Origin: Lacinutrix sp. 5H-3-7-4
Lineage (GTDB): Bacteria > Bacteroidota > Bacteroidia > Flavobacteriales > Flavobacteriaceae
Length of the DNA: 64,000 nucleotides
NCBI RefSeq assembly: GCF_000211855.2
Contig: NC_015638.1
Span: forward strand, 3,073,001-3,137,000
Direction of reading: 5' to 3'
This document shows positions 495 through 25,657 of the stretch, piece by piece. The notes under the pieces were generated by a model. It saw only the letters and a program-made list of their open reading frames with translations, was not told the DNA's origin and did no database searches. The position numbers were made by a program, and so were the translations under genes. Position 1 is the stretch's first letter. Every line of letters begins with the position of its first letter.

Positions 495-1874
495 ATGTAT
501 TCAAAACTTTTATACCTGTGTCTTGCTATACTATTTATTAATTTAAGCTTTGCTCAAGAACAAAAAATATGGGAGCTTGAACATGGTGAGTTTAAACTCT
601 ATAAATCTAATGGTATTTCTGCTAGATTTGAATCTCAAAATTCTAAAAGACATCCAGGAAAATTTATAGCTTCTACAGGAAACCGTAAAGGCAACCGTCC
701 GTCTGCAGAAGATATATTTATTACTTATAGAGGAACTTGTGGCCAACAAATTAAAATAGAAACTGGCCAATTGTTTAATCACAACCCATTACTTCAAACT
801 TTTATAAAAACAAGAAAACTAGAAGACTTACCAATTAAAAACATGTTAAATGCACTATCTAAAGGTTTAAAAAAAGAGTGTGAAGAACTTGAATCTATTA
901 GAGTTAATATTGGGCCTTTATACATACCCAAAACAGAATCTAATACTAAAGCCGAAACAATAACGGTGCAAGCAAACATGTCTAAAACTAATAATTGGAA
1001 ACTTAAAGAAGGTTTTGGTGCATCTTTAGATAACTTAAAAATAAAATTTAACACAACACCATTTTTAAACACTTATTTAGCTGTTAATTATGAAGGACCA
1101 TGTAAAACCGTACAACAATTAAATATAGCACCTGTTTTTAGTAACAATACAGAGCGTTATGCTTATAAAAAGCCAACAGGAATGCTTTATTATGAAAAAA
1201 TTGCAAAACGAACAATTAAACCTTTCCTTTTAGAATGCCCAGATGTGGAAACTTTTGAATTTTCTTTAAAAGATGTACCTGATAATGTTTTTATAAGAGA
1301 AGGCACTAAAGGTGTTATTAAGGCTAATAAAAGCAACAATTGGCAGTTAAATTTGTCTGATTTTGGTTACTACAGCGCAGAAGCACCTAGAATAAACTCG
1401 TACAGCGACTTAATAACACAATTAGAAACCAATGAGTTTCCTTTTTTTGAACGCTACTCTGACTTTTTTAAACTTTTCTACGAAGATTTTATGGATGCCT
1501 ATGGAACCACATGCCGAAACAATTTATCTAACGTAACAAAAATTAGTATTCATGCTTTTGAAAGCCGATATAATAGTGATGGATTTAAAATTAGTGAAAC
1601 CTCGCTTGGAGAACCTCAAGTATCTTATGTAGAAACAAAATACTTTAACATCTACAATAAATTTGCTGCTTATAATAAGCAAACAGTAATGTATAATATT
1701 TTTAAAGCTTATTTAGAGGGAAAATCTCAAAACAATATAGAACCAGTGAGACAAGCCATATTATTTAGGCTCGAAGGCTCACAACAAATTAATAAGTACA
1801 TAAACTCTAATTGTAACGATGCTAAGCTAAAAGCTATGTATAATTATATTCAAAAATTAGCGAGAAGTTTATAA
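495..1874 (+). CDS. Secreted protein of unknown function, 459 aa
   Basis: The first 20 residues (MYSKLLYLCLAILFINLSFA) form a Sec signal peptide with a likely cut after SFA, so the protein is periplasmic or exported. I do not recognise a family. The mature part contains three loosely similar segments, each with a phrase of the type NNWKL or NNWQL (near residues 165 and 285) followed by an aromatic stretch, and Cys residues at spaced positions (TCGQQ, GPCKTV, TTCRNN, SNCND), so an internal repeat and disulfides are possible. There is no lipobox and no T9SS tail. A strong terminator follows at 1926. Confidence 0.7.
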   Translation: MYSKLLYLCLAILFINLSFAQEQKIWELEHGEFKLYKSNGISARFESQNSKRHPGKFIASTGNRKGNRPSAEDIFITYRGTCGQQIKIETGQLFNHNPLLQTFIKTRKLEDLPIKNMLNALSKGLKKECEELESIRVNIGPLYIPKTESNTKAETITVQANMSKTNNWKLKEGFGASLDNLKIKFNTTPFLNTYLAVNYEGPCKTVQQLNIAPVFSNNTERYAYKKPTGMLYYEKIAKRTIKPFLLECPDVETFEFSLKDVPDNVFIREGTKGVIKANKSNNWQLNLSDFGYYSAEAPRINSYSDLITQLETNEFPFFERYSDFFKLFYEDFMDAYGTTCRNNLSNVTKISIHAFESRYNSDGFKISETSLGEPQVSYVETKYFNIYNKFAAYNKQTVMYNIFKAYLEGKSQNNIEPVRQAILFRLEGSQQINKYINSNCNDAKLKAMYNYIQKLARSL

Positions 1875-1925
1875 TTTACAGCTGAAGTATACTGTAGGAT
1901 AGTTATAAAGGTTAAAACAAAAAAA

Positions 1926-1957
1926 AAGCGTTTTTAAATATTACTTTAAAAACGCTT
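1926..1957. terminator. Bidirectional rho-independent terminator
   Basis: A perfect 13-bp stem (AAGCGTTTTTAAA at 1926-1938 with TTTAAAAACGCTT at 1945-1957) and a 6-nt loop sit between convergent genes, with an A-run on the left. It can serve both the secreted protein gene and the csbD-like gene. Confidence 0.85.
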
Positions 1958-1978
1958 AGCTCAGTAAACAATACAATT

Positions 1979-2164
1979 TTACCAGTTATTAATTTCTTCT
2001 TTTACTTCTTCTTTAGTTTTACCATACTTTTCTTGAATTTTACCAGCCAATTTATCTAAATTTCCTTCGGCTTCTTTGTATTCATCATCTGTGACTTTAC
2101 CATATTTTTGTTTAAAATCACCTTTTATCTGTTTCCACTTTCCTTTAAATTGTTCTTCGTTCAT
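1979..2164 (-). CDS. CsbD family stress protein
   Basis: This 61-residue, highly charged, probably helical protein carries the CsbD signature almost from end to end: FKGKWKQIKGDFKQKYGKVT, then EGNLDKLAGKIQEKYGKTKEE. CsbD-like proteins are general-stress proteins (sigma-B dependent in Bacillus, abundant in stationary phase elsewhere) whose molecular role is unknown. It stands alone, divergent from the patatin gene, with a private terminator downstream. Confidence 0.9.
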   Translation of the reverse strand: MNEEQFKGKWKQIKGDFKQKYGKVTDDEYKEAEGNLDKLAGKIQEKYGKTKEEVKEEINNW

Positions 2165-2370
2165 AAGTCTGTTTTTTTTATTGTTTACATTAAAATTAAT
2201 ACTTTAACCAGTCTTTACTTAATTCATTTGCATTAAATCTTATCTCATTTAAAATTTCATTCTTTCTTAAAGATTAATTTACAAATAGAATAGTATTTTT
2301 ATACACAGTTACATCGCTTACTCATAATTTATTCAATTTCAATAATGCATTTACACATGCATAAACATAT

Positions 2371-3678
2371 ATGATAAACAAACAAAAAATAGGATTAAGC
2401 CTTTCTGGTGGTGGTTATCGGGCTACTATATATCATTTAGGAACTTTTAAAAAGTTAAAAGAATTAAACCTTTTAAATAAAGTTGATGTTATTTCTACTA
2501 ATTCTGGAGGCTCTATTACTGGAGCTACTTATGGTCTATACGAGCACGATTTTGAGACTTTTGAACGTGTTATTAGAAATGGAGTAAAACAAAGTGTTAT
2601 AAAAGGTGTATTAACATCATGGCGTATTTTACTTACGCTTTTTACCTTTTTTGCAAGTATCGTTGCTGTATTCTATTTGCTTTACACAAACCATAACTGG
2701 TATGCATTAAGCTTATTAATTTTTGTAGTAGTTATGATGCTTTTATTTCAGTTTCAGTTGTTACCTATTAGTAAATTAAACGAGCGCATGTACAATCGTA
2801 TTTTTTTTAAAGGAAAAACCTTGTCTGCTTTATCTTCAAATATACGGTTTGGAATAAATGCTACAAATTTAGAAACTGGTCGTTTATTTACTTTTTCTAA
2901 TGCCTATATGGGCGATTCGGTTTATAATTATCCAGATGATGAGGATAAAACTAAACCTATTCATTTTAAAGCAAAAAAATTTCCAATAGCTCGTGCTGTC
3001 GCGGCTTCTACCGCTGTACCATTTGTTTTTACACCTGTAAAAATAGACAAGCAGTTTTTTAGTAATCCCGAAGATTTTAATCGTGTAAAACCTCGATTAG
3101 TAGATGGTGGCGTTTACGATAATCAAGGTGCACATAAACTTACTCAAACAAAAAGTGCTTATGGTTGTAATACTGTAATTATTAGCGATGCTGGTAACAT
3201 AATGCCTTTTAAAAACACTTATAAAAACACACTTACTTTACTTATAAGAACGAGTGATGTTTTTATGAATAGAATTAAAAACCTGCAAATGGTTCAATAT
3301 TTATATGAAAACCATAAAACTGGCAAGCGCGAAATTGCTTATCAATCGCTTGGTTGGAATATTGAAGATTCTATAAAAAAGTTTATTGATGGCGTTAAAG
3401 AAGGCACAATTATGCCTCACGTTTTAAACCACCACAATATTACTGAAGATGATATTACTAGTAAAAACTGGAAACTAATTAAACAGAAATTAAAATTGAG
3501 TATAGATTATAACTCAATTATAAAAGATATTAATACTACCGAGGCACTAGAGATAGCAAGAAAAGTAAGCACCAACTTAATACCTTTAAAAGATAACCAA
3601 ATTGATGCTCTTGTAAAACATGCATCTGTTTTAACCGAAATACAAGTAAAATTGTATTGTGTTAGTTTATTTAAATAG
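2371..3678 (+). CDS. Patatin-like phospholipase with membrane insertion
   Basis: The protein (435 aa) is a patatin-fold lipid acyl hydrolase. The oxyanion loop SGGGYRA lies at residues 12-18, the nucleophile elbow STNSGGS puts the catalytic Ser at 45, and the dyad Asp is in VDGGVYDNQG (Asp245). The elbow is T-N-S-G-G rather than the usual G-X-S-X-G, so the first Gly is replaced. Between elbow and Asp sits a hydrophobic segment of two membrane helices (about 85-130), which should anchor the enzyme to the inner membrane. There is no signal peptide. Its 3' end overlaps the convergent desaturase gene by 8 bp. Confidence 0.85.
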   Translation: MINKQKIGLSLSGGGYRATIYHLGTFKKLKELNLLNKVDVISTNSGGSITGATYGLYEHDFETFERVIRNGVKQSVIKGVLTSWRILLTLFTFFASIVAVFYLLYTNHNWYALSLLIFVVVMMLLFQFQLLPISKLNERMYNRIFFKGKTLSALSSNIRFGINATNLETGRLFTFSNAYMGDSVYNYPDDEDKTKPIHFKAKKFPIARAVAASTAVPFVFTPVKIDKQFFSNPEDFNRVKPRLVDGGVYDNQGAHKLTQTKSAYGCNTVIISDAGNIMPFKNTYKNTLTLLIRTSDVFMNRIKNLQMVQYLYENHKTGKREIAYQSLGWNIEDSIKKFIDGVKEGTIMPHVLNHHNITEDDITSKNWKLIKQKLKLSIDYNSIIKDINTTEALEIARKVSTNLIPLKDNQIDALVKHASVLTEIQVKLYCVSLFK

Positions 3679-4405
3679 CAGCTTTTTTAAGCTTTATAAT
3701 TTTAAGCTTATCTAAAACTACCATTATACAGTATGTAAAATCTATTTCGTGCCATTTTACTCCAAAATTAGCACGACCACTATGTGTGTGGTGATTATTA
3801 TGGTAACTTTCTCCCATCATTAAAAAATCGAACGGTAATAGGTTTTTAGAAGTATCTTTTACTTTAAAATTTGTATAACCATAAATATGTGCAAACCAAT
3901 TAATTATAACACCATGAATTGGTGCCATAAAAAATGCTACTGGCAATAATAACCATTGCCACCATGCCGTAGCAAATAGTGCAAAAAAAGTAATATATAA
4001 CGCAGCCCATGTTAAGCGTGATGCTCGTGAGCTTGCAAATTGGTCAAAACGTTTCCATTGTGGTACGTTTTTGGTAAATTTATTTGCAACCGCAATACGT
4101 TTTTTATTTATGTCTTGATAAATATTTTTTGTTCGCCACATCATAGAAAACAAATTAGGATCGTATTTTGGTGAATGTGGATCGTTTTCTGTATCTGCAT
4201 AAGCGTGATGCATTCTATGCATTACACCATAACCATAAGCACTTAAATAGTTACTTCCTTGGAAAACCCATGTTAATACAAAGCAAACACGCTCTGTAAT
4301 TTTAGACATTGTAAAGGTTTGATGTGCTGCGTAACGGTGTAGAAAAAATGTTTGAAAAAATAAACCTGTATACCACAGAATAATTATAAATATTAAAATA
4401 GTCAT
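3671..4405 (-). CDS. Acyl-CoA / acyl-lipid fatty acid desaturase
   Basis: This is a membrane di-iron desaturase of the stearoyl-CoA delta-9 type, 244 aa. All three His boxes are visible: HRYAAH (His23, His28), HRMHH (His63, 66, 67) and HNNHH (His202, 205, 206). Four hydrophobic segments place it in the inner membrane. It would introduce a cis double bond into membrane acyl chains using reduced electron carriers and O2. The length is short compared with eukaryotic homologues but usual for bacterial ones. It is followed upstream on the same strand by a Crp/Fnr gene (gap 60 bp), which may control it. Confidence 0.9.
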   Translation of the reverse strand: MTILIFIIILWYTGLFFQTFFLHRYAAHQTFTMSKITERVCFVLTWVFQGSNYLSAYGYGVMHRMHHAYADTENDPHSPKYDPNLFSMMWRTKNIYQDINKKRIAVANKFTKNVPQWKRFDQFASSRASRLTWAALYITFFALFATAWWQWLLLPVAFFMAPIHGVIINWFAHIYGYTNFKVKDTSKNLLPFDFLMMGESYHNNHHTHSGRANFGVKWHEIDFTYCIMVVLDKLKIIKLKKAAI

Positions 4406-4465
4406 AGCCTTTGCTTTAATTTTGCAAAGTTCTATATACTTAAGGCTAATTAAAATGAACCTAAG

Positions 4466-5038
4466 TTAAGAAATACGTTTTCTAATTCTACTTAAAGCTT
4501 GCGCTGTAACGCCAATATACGAAGCGACATACTTTAAAGGTATTTCTTTAATTAAGTTAGGTCGTTCTGTAAATAATTTAAGGTAACGCTCTTCTGCTGT
4601 GTGATTTAAAAGGGATTGTTCTCGTTTAGATTTTATAAGAAATAAACGCTCTGAAGATAGGCGACCAATAACATTTCCTGCAAAACTCTTCTCGTAAACC
4701 TCTTGCAAATCGTTATACGAAATACTCCACATAGAAATATCAGACAATGCTTGTAACTTATATAATGAAGGTTTTTGGGTTAAAAAAGAATCGTAAGCAC
4801 TTACAAATTCATTTTTAAAACAGAAACCAAAAGTGATGTCTTTATCTTTATCTTCTTTAGGAATTAAAAATCTTGCAATACCACTTTCTATAAAAGATAT
4901 ATAGTTTTCTGTCTCGCCAACATCTAGAATAGTACTTTTTTTCTTAAAGACTCTATTCTTTAACTTTGATGAAAATAGTTGCCAATCTTCATCTGAAATT
5001 GCTACCGTTTTTTCTATATACTCTCTAATGTTTTTCAT
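4466..5038 (-). CDS. Crp/Fnr family transcriptional regulator
   Basis: This 190-residue protein has an N-terminal cyclic-nucleotide-binding-like beta-roll (KSTILDVGETENYISFIESGIARFL, about residues 34-60) and a C-terminal helix-turn-helix (EIPLKYVASYIGVTAQALSRIRKRIS). The HTH resembles the degenerate type of the many Bacteroidota Crp paralogues rather than true CRP. The residues that bind cAMP phosphate in CRP are not evident, so the ligand is unknown. It lies directly upstream of the desaturase gene on the same strand. Confidence 0.88.
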   Translation of the reverse strand: MKNIREYIEKTVAISDEDWQLFSSKLKNRVFKKKSTILDVGETENYISFIESGIARFLIPKEDKDKDITFGFCFKNEFVSAYDSFLTQKPSLYKLQALSDISMWSISYNDLQEVYEKSFAGNVIGRLSSERLFLIKSKREQSLLNHTAEERYLKLFTERPNLIKEIPLKYVASYIGVTAQALSRIRKRIS

Positions 5039-22014: not shown

Positions 22015-24414
22015 ATGTTCGCACTTTTAAAAAAAGAAATAAACTCATTTTTCGCTTCTCCAATTGGTTATTTGGTAATAGCCATTTTTCTATTACTAAA
22101 CGGCTTATTTTTATGGCTGTTTAAAGGTGAATTTAATGTGTTAGATTACGGTTTTGCAGATTTATCATCATTCTTTTTATTAACACCATGGATTTTAGTT
22201 TTTCTTATTCCGGCGGTTACTATGCGAAGTTTTAGCGATGAGAAAAAACAAGGAACTTTAGAGCTTTTATTAACCAAACCTATTTCACATTTACAAATTG
22301 TACTAGGTAAATACTTTGGCGCATTTTTACTAATTATTTTAGCGCTTATTCCTACTCTACTCTATGTTTATACCGTTAACCAATTAGGGAAACCTGTTGG
22401 TAATTTAGATGTTGGTAGTACATTAGGCTCGTATTTTGGATTACTTTTTTTAGTTGCTGCATATACCGCCATTGGCATATTTTCTTCAACATTAAGCGAC
22501 AATCAAATTGTAGCATTTATTATTGCTGTATTTCTATGCTTTTTATTTTATGTTGGTTTTGAAGGGCTTTCAGAGTTTTTAAACAGTACATTTATTGAAC
22601 AATTAGGCATGGCTTCTCACTTTAAAAGTATGAGTCGCGGTGTTTTAGATACGCGAGATATATTATATTTTTTAAGTATTACAATCTTTTTTGTGTTTTT
22701 AACGGTAAAACGAATTAATCTAGAAGGTGCAAAAACCATTAACAAATTCAACCTTTTATTATTACCACTAGCACTTCTGCTAATAAACATATTTATTAGT
22801 TCAAGATTTTATGGCAGATTCGATTTAACATCAGATAAACGTTACACTTTAAACGAAGCATCATTAAATGTTATAAAAGATGTAAACAGACCAATTGTTA
22901 TTGATGTATTTTTAGAAGGTGACGATTTTCCTTCGGAATTTAGAAGACTTCAAACTGAAACAAGGCAGTTACTTGAAGAATTTTCGGCTTATAACAGTAA
23001 TATAAAATTTAGTTTTATAAATCCAATTGAAGATGAAGCTACTCGTGACCAAAATATAGCACAATTAAGTGAACGTGGTTTAAAACCAATGCAACTTAGC
23101 GTACAAGAAAACGGGCAGCAATCACAACGTGTTATTATTCCATGGGCATTGGCTAGTTACGATAATCACACCATAGACATCCCGTTAGTAAAATATAAAG
23201 TAAATGCCAACCAGCAAGAATTAGTTACTAACTCTGTACAACATTTAGAATACGCCTTTGCAGATGGTTTAAGCAAATTGGTAAACCCAAAACGTAGAAA
23301 AATTGCCATTTTAAAAGGAAATAATGAATTGCCAGATCTTAAAATTGCCGACTTTTTAAAAACATTAGGGCAGTATTATTACATCGCACCATTTACTTTA
23401 GATAGTGTTGCTACTAATGCACAAAAAACATCAAAATCTTTAAATAGTTACGATTTAGTTATTGCTGCTAAACCTACTGAAGCGTTTACAGAAGCCGAAA
23501 AATATGTACTAGACCAATACACCATGAATGGTGGTAAAAGCCTTTGGCTAGTAGATAAAATTATCATGGAAAAAGACAGTTTATTTAATCCTGAAGGAAA
23601 AAATATAGCGGTACCAAGAGATTTAAATTTAACCGATTTCTTTTTTAAATATGGTGTTAGGGTAAACCCTTTACTAACTAGTGTAAAAAGTCAAAATATT
23701 GGGCGTATTACTCTAGAAACAGGACAAGACGAAAGCTTAAAATTACAGCATTTTCGTTGGCCATATTCTCCATTAGCACTTAGTGACGTTAATCACCCAA
23801 TTGTAAATAACATAAACTTTGTAAAGTTTGATTTTGCAAACCAAATAGACACACTTAAAAACGCTATTAAAAAGACTATTCTTTTAAAAAGTGACAAACC
23901 AAGCCGTTTAGAAGGTACGCCTAAAGAAATTAGTTTAGGTTTTGCACTTAAAGAACCTGCTCAAGAGTTATTTACTAAAGACAGGCAAAATCTTGCAGTG
24001 TTATTAGAAGGTGAATTTACATCGGTTTACAACAATCGTGTTAAACCAATTACACTTGAAAACGACAAAACAAAAAGTAGCAATACAAAAATGATTGTTA
24101 TTGCAGATGGAGACGTTATTAAAAACGATTTAGACAAAGGAAGACCAACAACTTTAGGCTTCGATAAATGGACAAAAGAAACCTACGGAAACAAAGAATT
24201 TTTACTCAATGCTGTTAATTATCTATTAGATGACGATGGACTTATAAACATTCGCAGCAAAGAAGTTAAAGTTGCCTTTTTAGATCATGCAAAAATTGCA
24301 AAACAAAAAACCAAATGGCAACTGGTTAATATTCTATTGCCATTATTGATATTAGCAGTGTTTGGCTTAATATTTAATTTTATAAGAAAACGTAAATACG
24401 CTAAAAAATCTTAA
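22015..24414 (+). CDS. gldFG: GldF-GldG fusion, gliding motility ABC transporter
   Basis: This single 799-residue frame covers two proteins that are normally separate. Residues 1 to about 235 are the ABC permease GldF (six helices; FASPIGYLVIAIFLLLNG, KKQGTLELLLTKPI). Residues about 240-799 are GldG: a membrane helix, then FDLTSDKRYTLNEAS, a large periplasmic part and a C-terminal helix (about 773-790) with basic tail. The join at RINLEGAKTINKF contains no Met, so no separate GldG start is available. With the ATPase GldA encoded elsewhere, it forms a transporter needed for gliding in Flavobacterium. Upstream of dnaN, with a 124-bp gap. Confidence 0.88.
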   Translation: MFALLKKEINSFFASPIGYLVIAIFLLLNGLFLWLFKGEFNVLDYGFADLSSFFLLTPWILVFLIPAVTMRSFSDEKKQGTLELLLTKPISHLQIVLGKYFGAFLLIILALIPTLLYVYTVNQLGKPVGNLDVGSTLGSYFGLLFLVAAYTAIGIFSSTLSDNQIVAFIIAVFLCFLFYVGFEGLSEFLNSTFIEQLGMASHFKSMSRGVLDTRDILYFLSITIFFVFLTVKRINLEGAKTINKFNLLLLPLALLLINIFISSRFYGRFDLTSDKRYTLNEASLNVIKDVNRPIVIDVFLEGDDFPSEFRRLQTETRQLLEEFSAYNSNIKFSFINPIEDEATRDQNIAQLSERGLKPMQLSVQENGQQSQRVIIPWALASYDNHTIDIPLVKYKVNANQQELVTNSVQHLEYAFADGLSKLVNPKRRKIAILKGNNELPDLKIADFLKTLGQYYYIAPFTLDSVATNAQKTSKSLNSYDLVIAAKPTEAFTEAEKYVLDQYTMNGGKSLWLVDKIIMEKDSLFNPEGKNIAVPRDLNLTDFFFKYGVRVNPLLTSVKSQNIGRITLETGQDESLKLQHFRWPYSPLALSDVNHPIVNNINFVKFDFANQIDTLKNAIKKTILLKSDKPSRLEGTPKEISLGFALKEPAQELFTKDRQNLAVLLEGEFTSVYNNRVKPITLENDKTKSSNTKMIVIADGDVIKNDLDKGRPTTLGFDKWTKETYGNKEFLLNAVNYLLDDDGLINIRSKEVKVAFLDHAKIAKQKTKWQLVNILLPLLILAVFGLIFNFIRKRKYAKKS

Positions 24415-24538: not shown

Positions 24539-25657
24539 ATGAAGTTTATAGTATCAAGTACTTATTTACTTAAGCAACTACAAGTTTTAGGAGGTGTAAT
24601 AAACAACTCAAACACCTTACCTATTTTAGATAATTTTCTTTTCGATATTGATAACAATGCGCTTACAGTTTCGGCTAGTGATTTAGAAACCACTATGTCT
24701 TCAACATTAGATATAGAAAGTGATAGTAAAGGTAGTGTAGCAATTCCTGCTAGATTATTATTAGATACTTTAAAAACATTTCCAGAGCAGCCATTAACTT
24801 TTACAGTAGAAGAAAACAATACGGTAGAAATTAGCTCAAACCATGGTAAATATGCTTTAGCTTATGCAGATGGTGCAGAATTTCCAAAAGCTGTATCTCT
24901 TGAAGATCCAAGTGCTACAACAATTTCTGGAGATATATTAGCAACAGCAATTAGTAAAACAATTTTTGCTGCTGGTAACGATGATTTAAGACCAGTAATG
25001 AGTGGTGTGTTTTTTCAATTCTCTACAGATAACTTAACTTTTGTAGCTACAGATGCGCACAAACTAGTAAAATACACTCGTGAAGATGTTTCTGCTTCTC
25101 AAGTTGCAGAATTTATTATGCCTAAAAAACCATTAACGTTATTAAAAGGTATTTTATCTTCTAGTGACCAAGATGTAACTATAGAGTATAATGACTCTAA
25201 TGCTAAATTTACTTTTGAAAACACAATTTTAATTTGTCGTTTAATTGATGGTAAATATCCAAATTACGAAGCTGTAATACCAAAAGAAAACCCTAATAAA
25301 TTAAGTATAGACAGAACACAATTTTTAAATTCTGTAAAACGTGTTAGTATTTTTTCTAATAAAACTACACACCAAATACGCTTAAAAATTGCTGGTGCAG
25401 AATTAAATATTTCTGCAGAAGATATAGATTACTCTAACAAAGCTGAAGAACGTTTAACTTGTGATTATCAAGGAGACGATATGCAAATAGGTTTTAACTC
25501 TCGTTTTTTAACAGAGATGCTTAACAACTTAAATGCTACAGATGTACAATTAGAAATGAGCATGCCTAATAGAGCAGGAATTTTAACACCAATTGATGGT
25601 CTAGATGAAGGAGAATATGTTACTATGTTAGTAATGCCAGTAATGTTAAACAGTTAA
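24539..25657 (+). CDS. dnaN: DNA polymerase III subunit beta (sliding clamp)
   Basis: This 372-residue protein forms the ring-shaped processivity clamp of the replicase. The family pattern is clear throughout: MKFIVSSTYLLKQLQVLGGVI, LPILDNFLFDI, FVATDAHKLVKYTRE and the C-terminal LVMPVML. Length is normal. It has its own -7 element and a strong terminator. I see no origin or dnaA nearby, as is usual for Bacteroidota where dnaN is separated from dnaA. Confidence 0.97.
   Translation: MKFIVSSTYLLKQLQVLGGVINNSNTLPILDNFLFDIDNNALTVSASDLETTMSSTLDIESDSKGSVAIPARLLLDTLKTFPEQPLTFTVEENNTVEISSNHGKYALAYADGAEFPKAVSLEDPSATTISGDILATAISKTIFAAGNDDLRPVMSGVFFQFSTDNLTFVATDAHKLVKYTREDVSASQVAEFIMPKKPLTLLKGILSSSDQDVTIEYNDSNAKFTFENTILICRLIDGKYPNYEAVIPKENPNKLSIDRTQFLNSVKRVSIFSNKTTHQIRLKIAGAELNISAEDIDYSNKAEERLTCDYQGDDMQIGFNSRFLTEMLNNLNATDVQLEMSMPNRAGILTPIDGLDEGEYVTMLVMPVMLNS

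Follow-up and report, generated by a model that had tools for sequence, protein, structure and literature searches.

A fused gldF-gldG gene in Lacinutrix, its recurrence in the class and its alternation with an interrupted form

We analyzed a 64,000-nucleotide stretch of the Lacinutrix sp. 5H-3-7-4 genome (NC_015638.1, positions 3,073,001 to 3,137,000, hereafter the window), in which GldF and GldG are encoded by one open reading frame. The fusion is confirmed, and we read it as the mark of two proteins working as one unit, not a genome oddity. Its interest lies in its recurrence and in the alternation between a fused and an interrupted form of the locus. We claim no priority for it, although the passages covered by our search of the open-licence literature contain no report of a natural GldF-GldG fusion.

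A single reading frame for GldF and GldG

The frame lies at 22015..24414 on the + strand of the window, whose contig represents the whole genome, and runs from ATG to TAA, encoding 799 aa plus the stop, with GldF first and GldG second. Residues 1-235 match the NCBIfam model TIGR03518 (GldF) with 362.2 bits against a cut-off of 288.5, over profile positions 1-238 of 240. Residues 251-796 match TIGR03521 (GldG) with 726.4 bits against a cut-off of 389.85, over positions 7-552 of 552. With scores above both curated cut-offs and full profile coverage, the window protein belongs to the GldF equivalog family and to the GldG equivalog family, and this near-complete coverage agrees with the initial annotation, which had described both parts as intact. 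The locus does not have the usual two-gene layout of GldF permease and GldG, as it is one frame; it is a variant arrangement that still falls inside both families.

Within codons 206-300, ATG, GTG or TTG occurs just twice, as ATG 206 upstream of the last GldF helix and as GTG 227 within that helix. None is present in codons 228-300, and the linker has no stop codon either. Thus, the initial annotation was right that the frame is open through the junction and that no Met separates the final GldF helix from the first helix of GldG, and the latter observation extends to GTG and TTG.

The frame is also open across the junction, with codon-level conservation, in nine Lacinutrix-type fused sequences, comprising the window's own, one that is 99% identical to it, and seven others. 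Their alignment over residues 218-275 contains a single in-frame gap of one residue. In this set, dN/dS was 0.20 for linker codons 228-246, 0.05 for GldF and 0.06 for the soluble part of GldG, all of them rough figures, as synonymous sites are close to saturation. The linker codons of these nine sequences appear to be under purifying selection. The linker evolves faster than the rest of the gene, so it may be only a tether. The idea that the frame is open by chance is ruled out by the two profile matches together with the codon conservation across the junction.

The GldF part (22015..22719, +) is an ABC-2 type permease with six predicted transmembrane helices, assigned by TIGR03518, hydropathy and Foldseek; the hydropathy helices span residues 17-35, 50-68, 103-121, 142-160, 164-182 and 210-228. 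In the AlphaFold2 model (48 rows; mean pLDDT 79.5, pTM 0.73), a helix at residues 213-236 is followed by a loop at 237-243 and a helix at 244-264. This linker loop (22723..22743, +) sits between the last GldF and the first GldG helix, and falls within 22700-22760, the junction interval named by the initial annotation. It would be cytoplasmic. The pLDDT at the loop is only about 64-65, and confidence is lower still in parts of the membrane region. The first transmembrane helix of the GldG part (residues 244-264; 22744..22806, +) coincides with a hydropathy helix at 245-263.

Pfam finds ABC-2 membrane domains, DUF7088 and ABC_transp_aux in the window protein. In the GldG part, the DUF7088 domain (PF23357; 22831..23154, +) scores 113.8 bits and the ABC_transp_aux domain (PF09822; 23293..24213, +) 289.3 bits, the latter with a GIFT-like fold according to Foldseek. 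The part ends in a C-terminal helix with a membrane anchor (residues 758-798 in AlphaFold2; 24286..24408, +), containing a hydropathy helix at 769-787. The GIFT domain takes its name from GldG and IFT52 (PMC7226087, PMC10191852). Foldseek aligned the periplasmic part of GldG with the N-terminal domains of IFT52 (5fmr_A, E 2.8e-07; 5fms_B, TMt 0.71, rmsd 7.3) and with chain B of the OST complex 6c26 (TMt 0.42). By structure it belongs to the GIFT-domain fold, at an rmsd of 7.3-9.0 and a sequence identity of 12-16% in the matches; the matching GIFT domains of IFT52 and of Wbp1 in OST are eukaryotic and belong to other complexes. The GldF part matched chains of NosDFY, the system of the NosY permease (7o0y_E, TMt 0.70, rmsd 4.1). 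NosD, the periplasmic partner in NosDFY, is a separate and unrelated protein, unlike the GldG part. A PDB sequence search with the window protein returned only a nanobody (E 0.31) and no close solved structure. The natural fused protein would be a practical target for purification and cryo-EM.

Recurrence of the fused state

All 13 Lacinutrix genomes carry GldF/GldG genes, and in 11 of the 13 these are fused (10 complete, one cut by a contig end). The two exceptions, G004 and G005, have a small gene, ORF I, between gldF and gldG. A fusion private to this strain is therefore rejected. The initial annotation had presented the fusion as unusual, and this is not supported, given its frequency in the genus and its recurrence in the class. 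It had also named a fusion that is the known norm of the genus as an argument against its claim; in substance this is the situation in Lacinutrix, though we found no paper that states it. It was right that two normally separate genes are joined here, but the fusion is neither rare in the genus nor confined to it.

Among the 397 Flavobacteriaceae genomes searched, 339 had a match and at least 77 of these carry the fusion. The matches listed covered 150 family genomes, of which 75 are fused, 11 are separate in one frame with a single stop, and 64 have separate pieces. Because the search reads through stops, the frequency of these one-stop loci should not be over-read. Six loci from the 64 two-piece genomes were inspected (L170-L175), and all were separate. 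For many of these 64 genomes an open frame of about 953-998 aa was listed; the four loci checked hold frames of 558-566, 239-244 and 161-169 aa instead. The other 189 genomes were re-searched with the GldG model, which added two fused cases (G148 and G210). TIGR03521 matched nothing in four of the 189, and in a few others the gene was broken or ran off a contig end. The state of most was assigned from the length of the open frame, not from the locus itself, which makes 77 a lower bound.

Among the loci fetched, a fused copy is present in 50 genera of Flavobacteriaceae. Outside Flavobacteriaceae, GldG-containing frames of about 800 aa are present in families f2, f7, f19, f23 and f55. The order search gave at least 12 such genomes among 246, and the class search at least 10 among 295; 19 such loci outside the family were fetched, and all 19 were fused. 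A fused frame of family f50 (G740, L283) exceeds the GldG cut-off with 518.3 bits and falls just below the GldF one (284.3 against 288.5). Fused frames thus exist in six other families of the class. Outside the class, f90 has frames of 895-908 aa with weak GldF and GldG matches (L277 was scored). Both states are present in f1, f7 and f55 among the loci fetched. Separate genes are the commoner state in the lists surveyed, in line with the view of the initial annotation that GldF and GldG are normally two genes, and consequently fusion is not needed for function. As a point of caution for annotation, these genes may be miscounted where a survey looks for two proteins of about 240 and 560 aa.

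Gene trees were built from GldF and GldG columns for 228 of the 275 loci, leaving out three without a GldF match and 44 near-duplicates (more than 93% identical, same state). FastTree implied 23 changes between fused and separate states, a quick IQ-TREE search 25, and a thinned 148-row tree 21; exact counts should not be leaned on, since all are gene trees from quick or FastTree searches under a plain LG model with no mixture model. When branches with SH-aLRT below 80, 90, 95 or 99 were collapsed into soft polytomies, the lower bound, with a separate root, was 22, 22, 19 and 15 changes, respectively. On these trees, the fused state arose repeatedly. A single ancient fusion for all fused rows is incompatible with them, and outside the window's clade the junction spacing is variable.

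How little a fusion requires can be seen at the junction. The distance between the GldF anchor in the last helix and the first soluble GldG anchor has a median of 47 residues in fused rows (89 of 108 measurable), and summing the two tails of separate genes gives 49 (52 of 84 measurable); these spacings, like the start-codon counts below, omit rows without a detected anchor motif. Stop removal alone would therefore nearly suffice for fusion. Almost no residues are lost at the join, and a short basic loop remains to connect the last GldF helix with the first GldG helix. In all 89 measurable fused rows, the least hydrophobic 15-residue segment of the junction is net positive. This fits a cytoplasmic loop but is supportive only, as the segment was picked for low hydropathy.

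The motif SRKW is found in the last ten residues of separate GldF proteins in 21 of 34 cases outside f1 (for example L201, L205 and L214-L216) and in 0 of 39 separate GldF C-termini within f1 (L236-L275). Three fused sequences of f7 (L179-L181) carry SRKW inside the linker with a GldG-like start right after it. By its sequence, this SRKW appears to be the visible scar of a simple stop loss.

A small gene at the junction in the window's clade

The window's gene belongs to a clade of 108 rows (support 100), composed of 72 fused rows and 36 rows with ORF I. All ORF I rows of the tree lie within this clade, and none of its 108 rows has plainly separate gldF and gldG. ORF I is a small membrane-protein gene encoding 161 aa, located between gldF and gldG (for example L085:3717-4202, +, and L032:3810-4295, -). 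The interrupted form was found at 45 loci, giving 36 rows after near-duplicate removal; in the 275 loci classified, ORF I was detected in 0 of the 143 fused and 0 of the 84 plainly separate ones. No Pfam family over cut-off was found for the two ORF I copies scanned. We do not claim that ORF I is BamE, for which the two copies gave sub-threshold Pfam matches only (E 0.009 and 0.026).

In 33 of 35 measurable interrupted rows, gldG lacks an ATG or GTG in the codons examined, and its start candidate is a TTG located 27 residues before the anchor, with an 8 nt overlap with ORF I (as in L085:4195-5862, +). In plainly separate rows, gldG has an ATG in 55 of 71 measurable cases. The conserved TTG and the 8 nt overlap suggest that gldG may be translationally coupled to ORF I. 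At the other boundary, 22 of 35 rows show a 4 nt overlap between gldF and ORF I, counted from the first ATG of ORF I. Interrupted GldF continues for 18-20 residues after its anchor, and 20 plus 27 gives 47. Among the clade's fused rows, 51 of the 61 measurable ones show this same anchor spacing of exactly 47 residues; the fused rows outside the clade range from 39 to 52, with 47 in 6 of 28. Consequently, apart from the presence of ORF I, almost no GldF or GldG residue is gained or lost between the fused and interrupted forms.

Two histories are conceivable: ORF I was inserted into a gene that had already been fused and then spread, or the ancestor carried ORF I and lost it on many later occasions. 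Parsimony, with 8-9 gains against 11-12 losses of ORF I, slightly favours insertion into the fused gene. Under the second history, to which we assign a real but clearly less than even chance, the fused form of the clade would be secondary, the ancestor having carried gldF-ORF I-gldG and ORF I having been excised many times with its flanks joined in frame. The identities of ORF I and of GldF/GldG correlate (r 0.74, 630 pairs), which is expected if they were co-inherited and favours long joint inheritance. The TTG overlap points the same way, since gldG may need ORF I translation and would then survive the loss of ORF I only as a fusion; however, insertion into an already fused gene would leave a TTG start too. 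Besides the parsimony count, the clade's fused rows at exactly 47 residues speak against repeated excision, as they look like the outcome of one event. In addition, the ORF I tree places the two Lacinutrix-type copies beside Tamlana copies. This arrangement suggests a lateral transfer of ORF I from Tamlana-like donors to the two interrupted Lacinutrix-type genomes, but receives no support from the AU test (p-AU 0.425, not significant). The reverse AU test on the GldF/GldG data gave p 0.0675, and sliding identities revealed no clear recombination break. Elsewhere in fused Lacinutrix genomes, the relatives of ORF I are weak (24-34% identity), and none were found in the fused genomes G104, G206 and G422; thus, no clear relocated copy is seen.

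As a speculative proposal, which we consider doubtful, the GldF-GldG junction may be an evolutionary switch point. In the Lacinutrix/Formosa/Algibacter/Tamlana clade, only the fused and the interrupted form were seen, and these would have been exchanged perhaps 8-12 times, never, among the sampled rows, by way of two plainly separate genes. On this view, ORF I is a removable and as yet undescribed third component or regulator of the Gld transporter that would matter only when the chains are separate. The alternation itself suggests that a small membrane protein, for which Pfam gave no family over cut-off, is tied to the Gld transporter.

In one of the interrupted Lacinutrix loci (L033, G004:C1:21000-28500), gldG, ORF I and a neighbouring dehydrogenase-like gene are broken by frame changes. 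The G004 genome is 84% complete and the same genes are intact in G005; assembly quality or decay may be the cause.

A proposed single-chain transporter and its relatives

We consider it likely that the frame encodes a single-chain GldF-GldG half-transporter that partners GldA in the Gld ABC transporter. On this reading, the six ABC-2 permease helices would lead through the short basic cytoplasmic loop to the N-terminal anchor of GldG, whose GIFT-like domain would sit in the periplasm and be anchored again by the C-terminal helix. Two GldFG chains and two copies of the GldA ATPase would form a (GldFG)2(GldA)2 ABC-2 transporter, which would support the type 9 secretion machinery as well as gliding. 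By fusion, two proteins already acting as one unit would be replaced by a single chain, GldG insertion would follow that of GldF, and the ratio would be fixed at 1:1, as the initial annotation had proposed. We infer the stoichiometry, the assembly of the complex, its orientation in the membrane and its role in gliding from what is generally known of ABC-2 transporters and from the modelled structure. GldA itself is encoded in the same genome, unlinked to the window (G000:C1:497320-498207), and qualifies as a family member with 461.4 bits against a cut-off of 402.6. Repeated independent fusion would be natural evidence for a 1:1 GldF:GldG unit and for a start of GldG on the cytoplasmic side.

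The system is like GldA/GldF/GldG of Flavobacterium johnsoniae and F. psychrophilum, with the same families above the curated cut-offs. The gene downstream of the fusion (24539-25657, +) is presumably dnaN, encoding the DNA polymerase beta clamp. The same order is described for F. psychrophilum, where gldG is just upstream of dnaN (PMC5682007). In F. johnsoniae and F. psychrophilum, in contrast, gldF and gldG are two genes, with a GldG of 559 aa in F. psychrophilum (same source), whereas the window has one 799-aa frame.

The mutant evidence considered here is for F. johnsoniae, which needs GldA/F/G to glide (PMC7440613). There, GldF and GldG are both required for the membrane localisation of GldA (PMC9127263), and motility and biofilm formation are lost in mutants of gldA, gldF or gldG (PMC8444969). 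For the window protein, gliding-motility transporter is the family label. The exact role of GldA/F/G in gliding has been called largely unknown so far (PMC5879114). It is possible, though on balance unlikely, that the fused transporter is intact but has a main job other than gliding, serving as an envelope ABC exporter, so that secretion and gliding suffer only indirectly when it is lost. GldJ is unstable in gldA, gldF and gldG mutants (PMC9870892), which allows such an indirect route, and Cellulophaga tyrosinoxydans glides without GldF and GldG, as C. algicola and Maribacter sp. HTCC2170 do without the genes of the Gld transporter (PMC7440613). The tie to gliding may therefore be indirect. 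The existence of related one-chain systems is also compatible with an exporter of this kind, but the non-motile mutants of F. johnsoniae argue against it.

We think it improbable that the fused chain is cut, or that GldG has an additional internal start, leaving the cell with two proteins as in other species. The linker is short, basic and variable, as such a reading would have it, and 39 of 94 measurable fused rows have an in-frame ATG, GTG or TTG within the 16 junction codons, an ATG in 16 of them. However, the other 55 rows have no start codon there, the place of the ATG varies along the junction among the 16, and the window itself has none of the three codons in the stretch from 228 to 300. 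A sequencing or assembly error that removed a stop or shifted the frame has a negligible probability and is rejected by the comparative data, as the fusion recurs in 11 of 13 genus genomes and across dozens of distinct assemblies, and the codons of the junction are conserved.

The single-chain half-transporter that we favour has diverged counterparts. Gld-like one-chain frames are present elsewhere in Bacteroidota (L279-L282 and L285, of 754-824 aa; more distantly L277 and L278), and these systems share an ABC-2 permease, PF09822 and a C-terminal helix in one frame of 754-908 aa, with Pfam run on L277, L279, L282 and L285. These four are far below the GldF and GldG equivalog cut-offs, whereas the window protein is above both and does not belong to this diverged group. 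At L279, the one-chain frame (1708-4089, -) adjoins a GldA-like ATPase (3980-4975, -) that matches TIGR03522 with 290.5 bits, below the GldA cut-off of 402.6. By resemblance, L279 would encode a Gld-like transporter.
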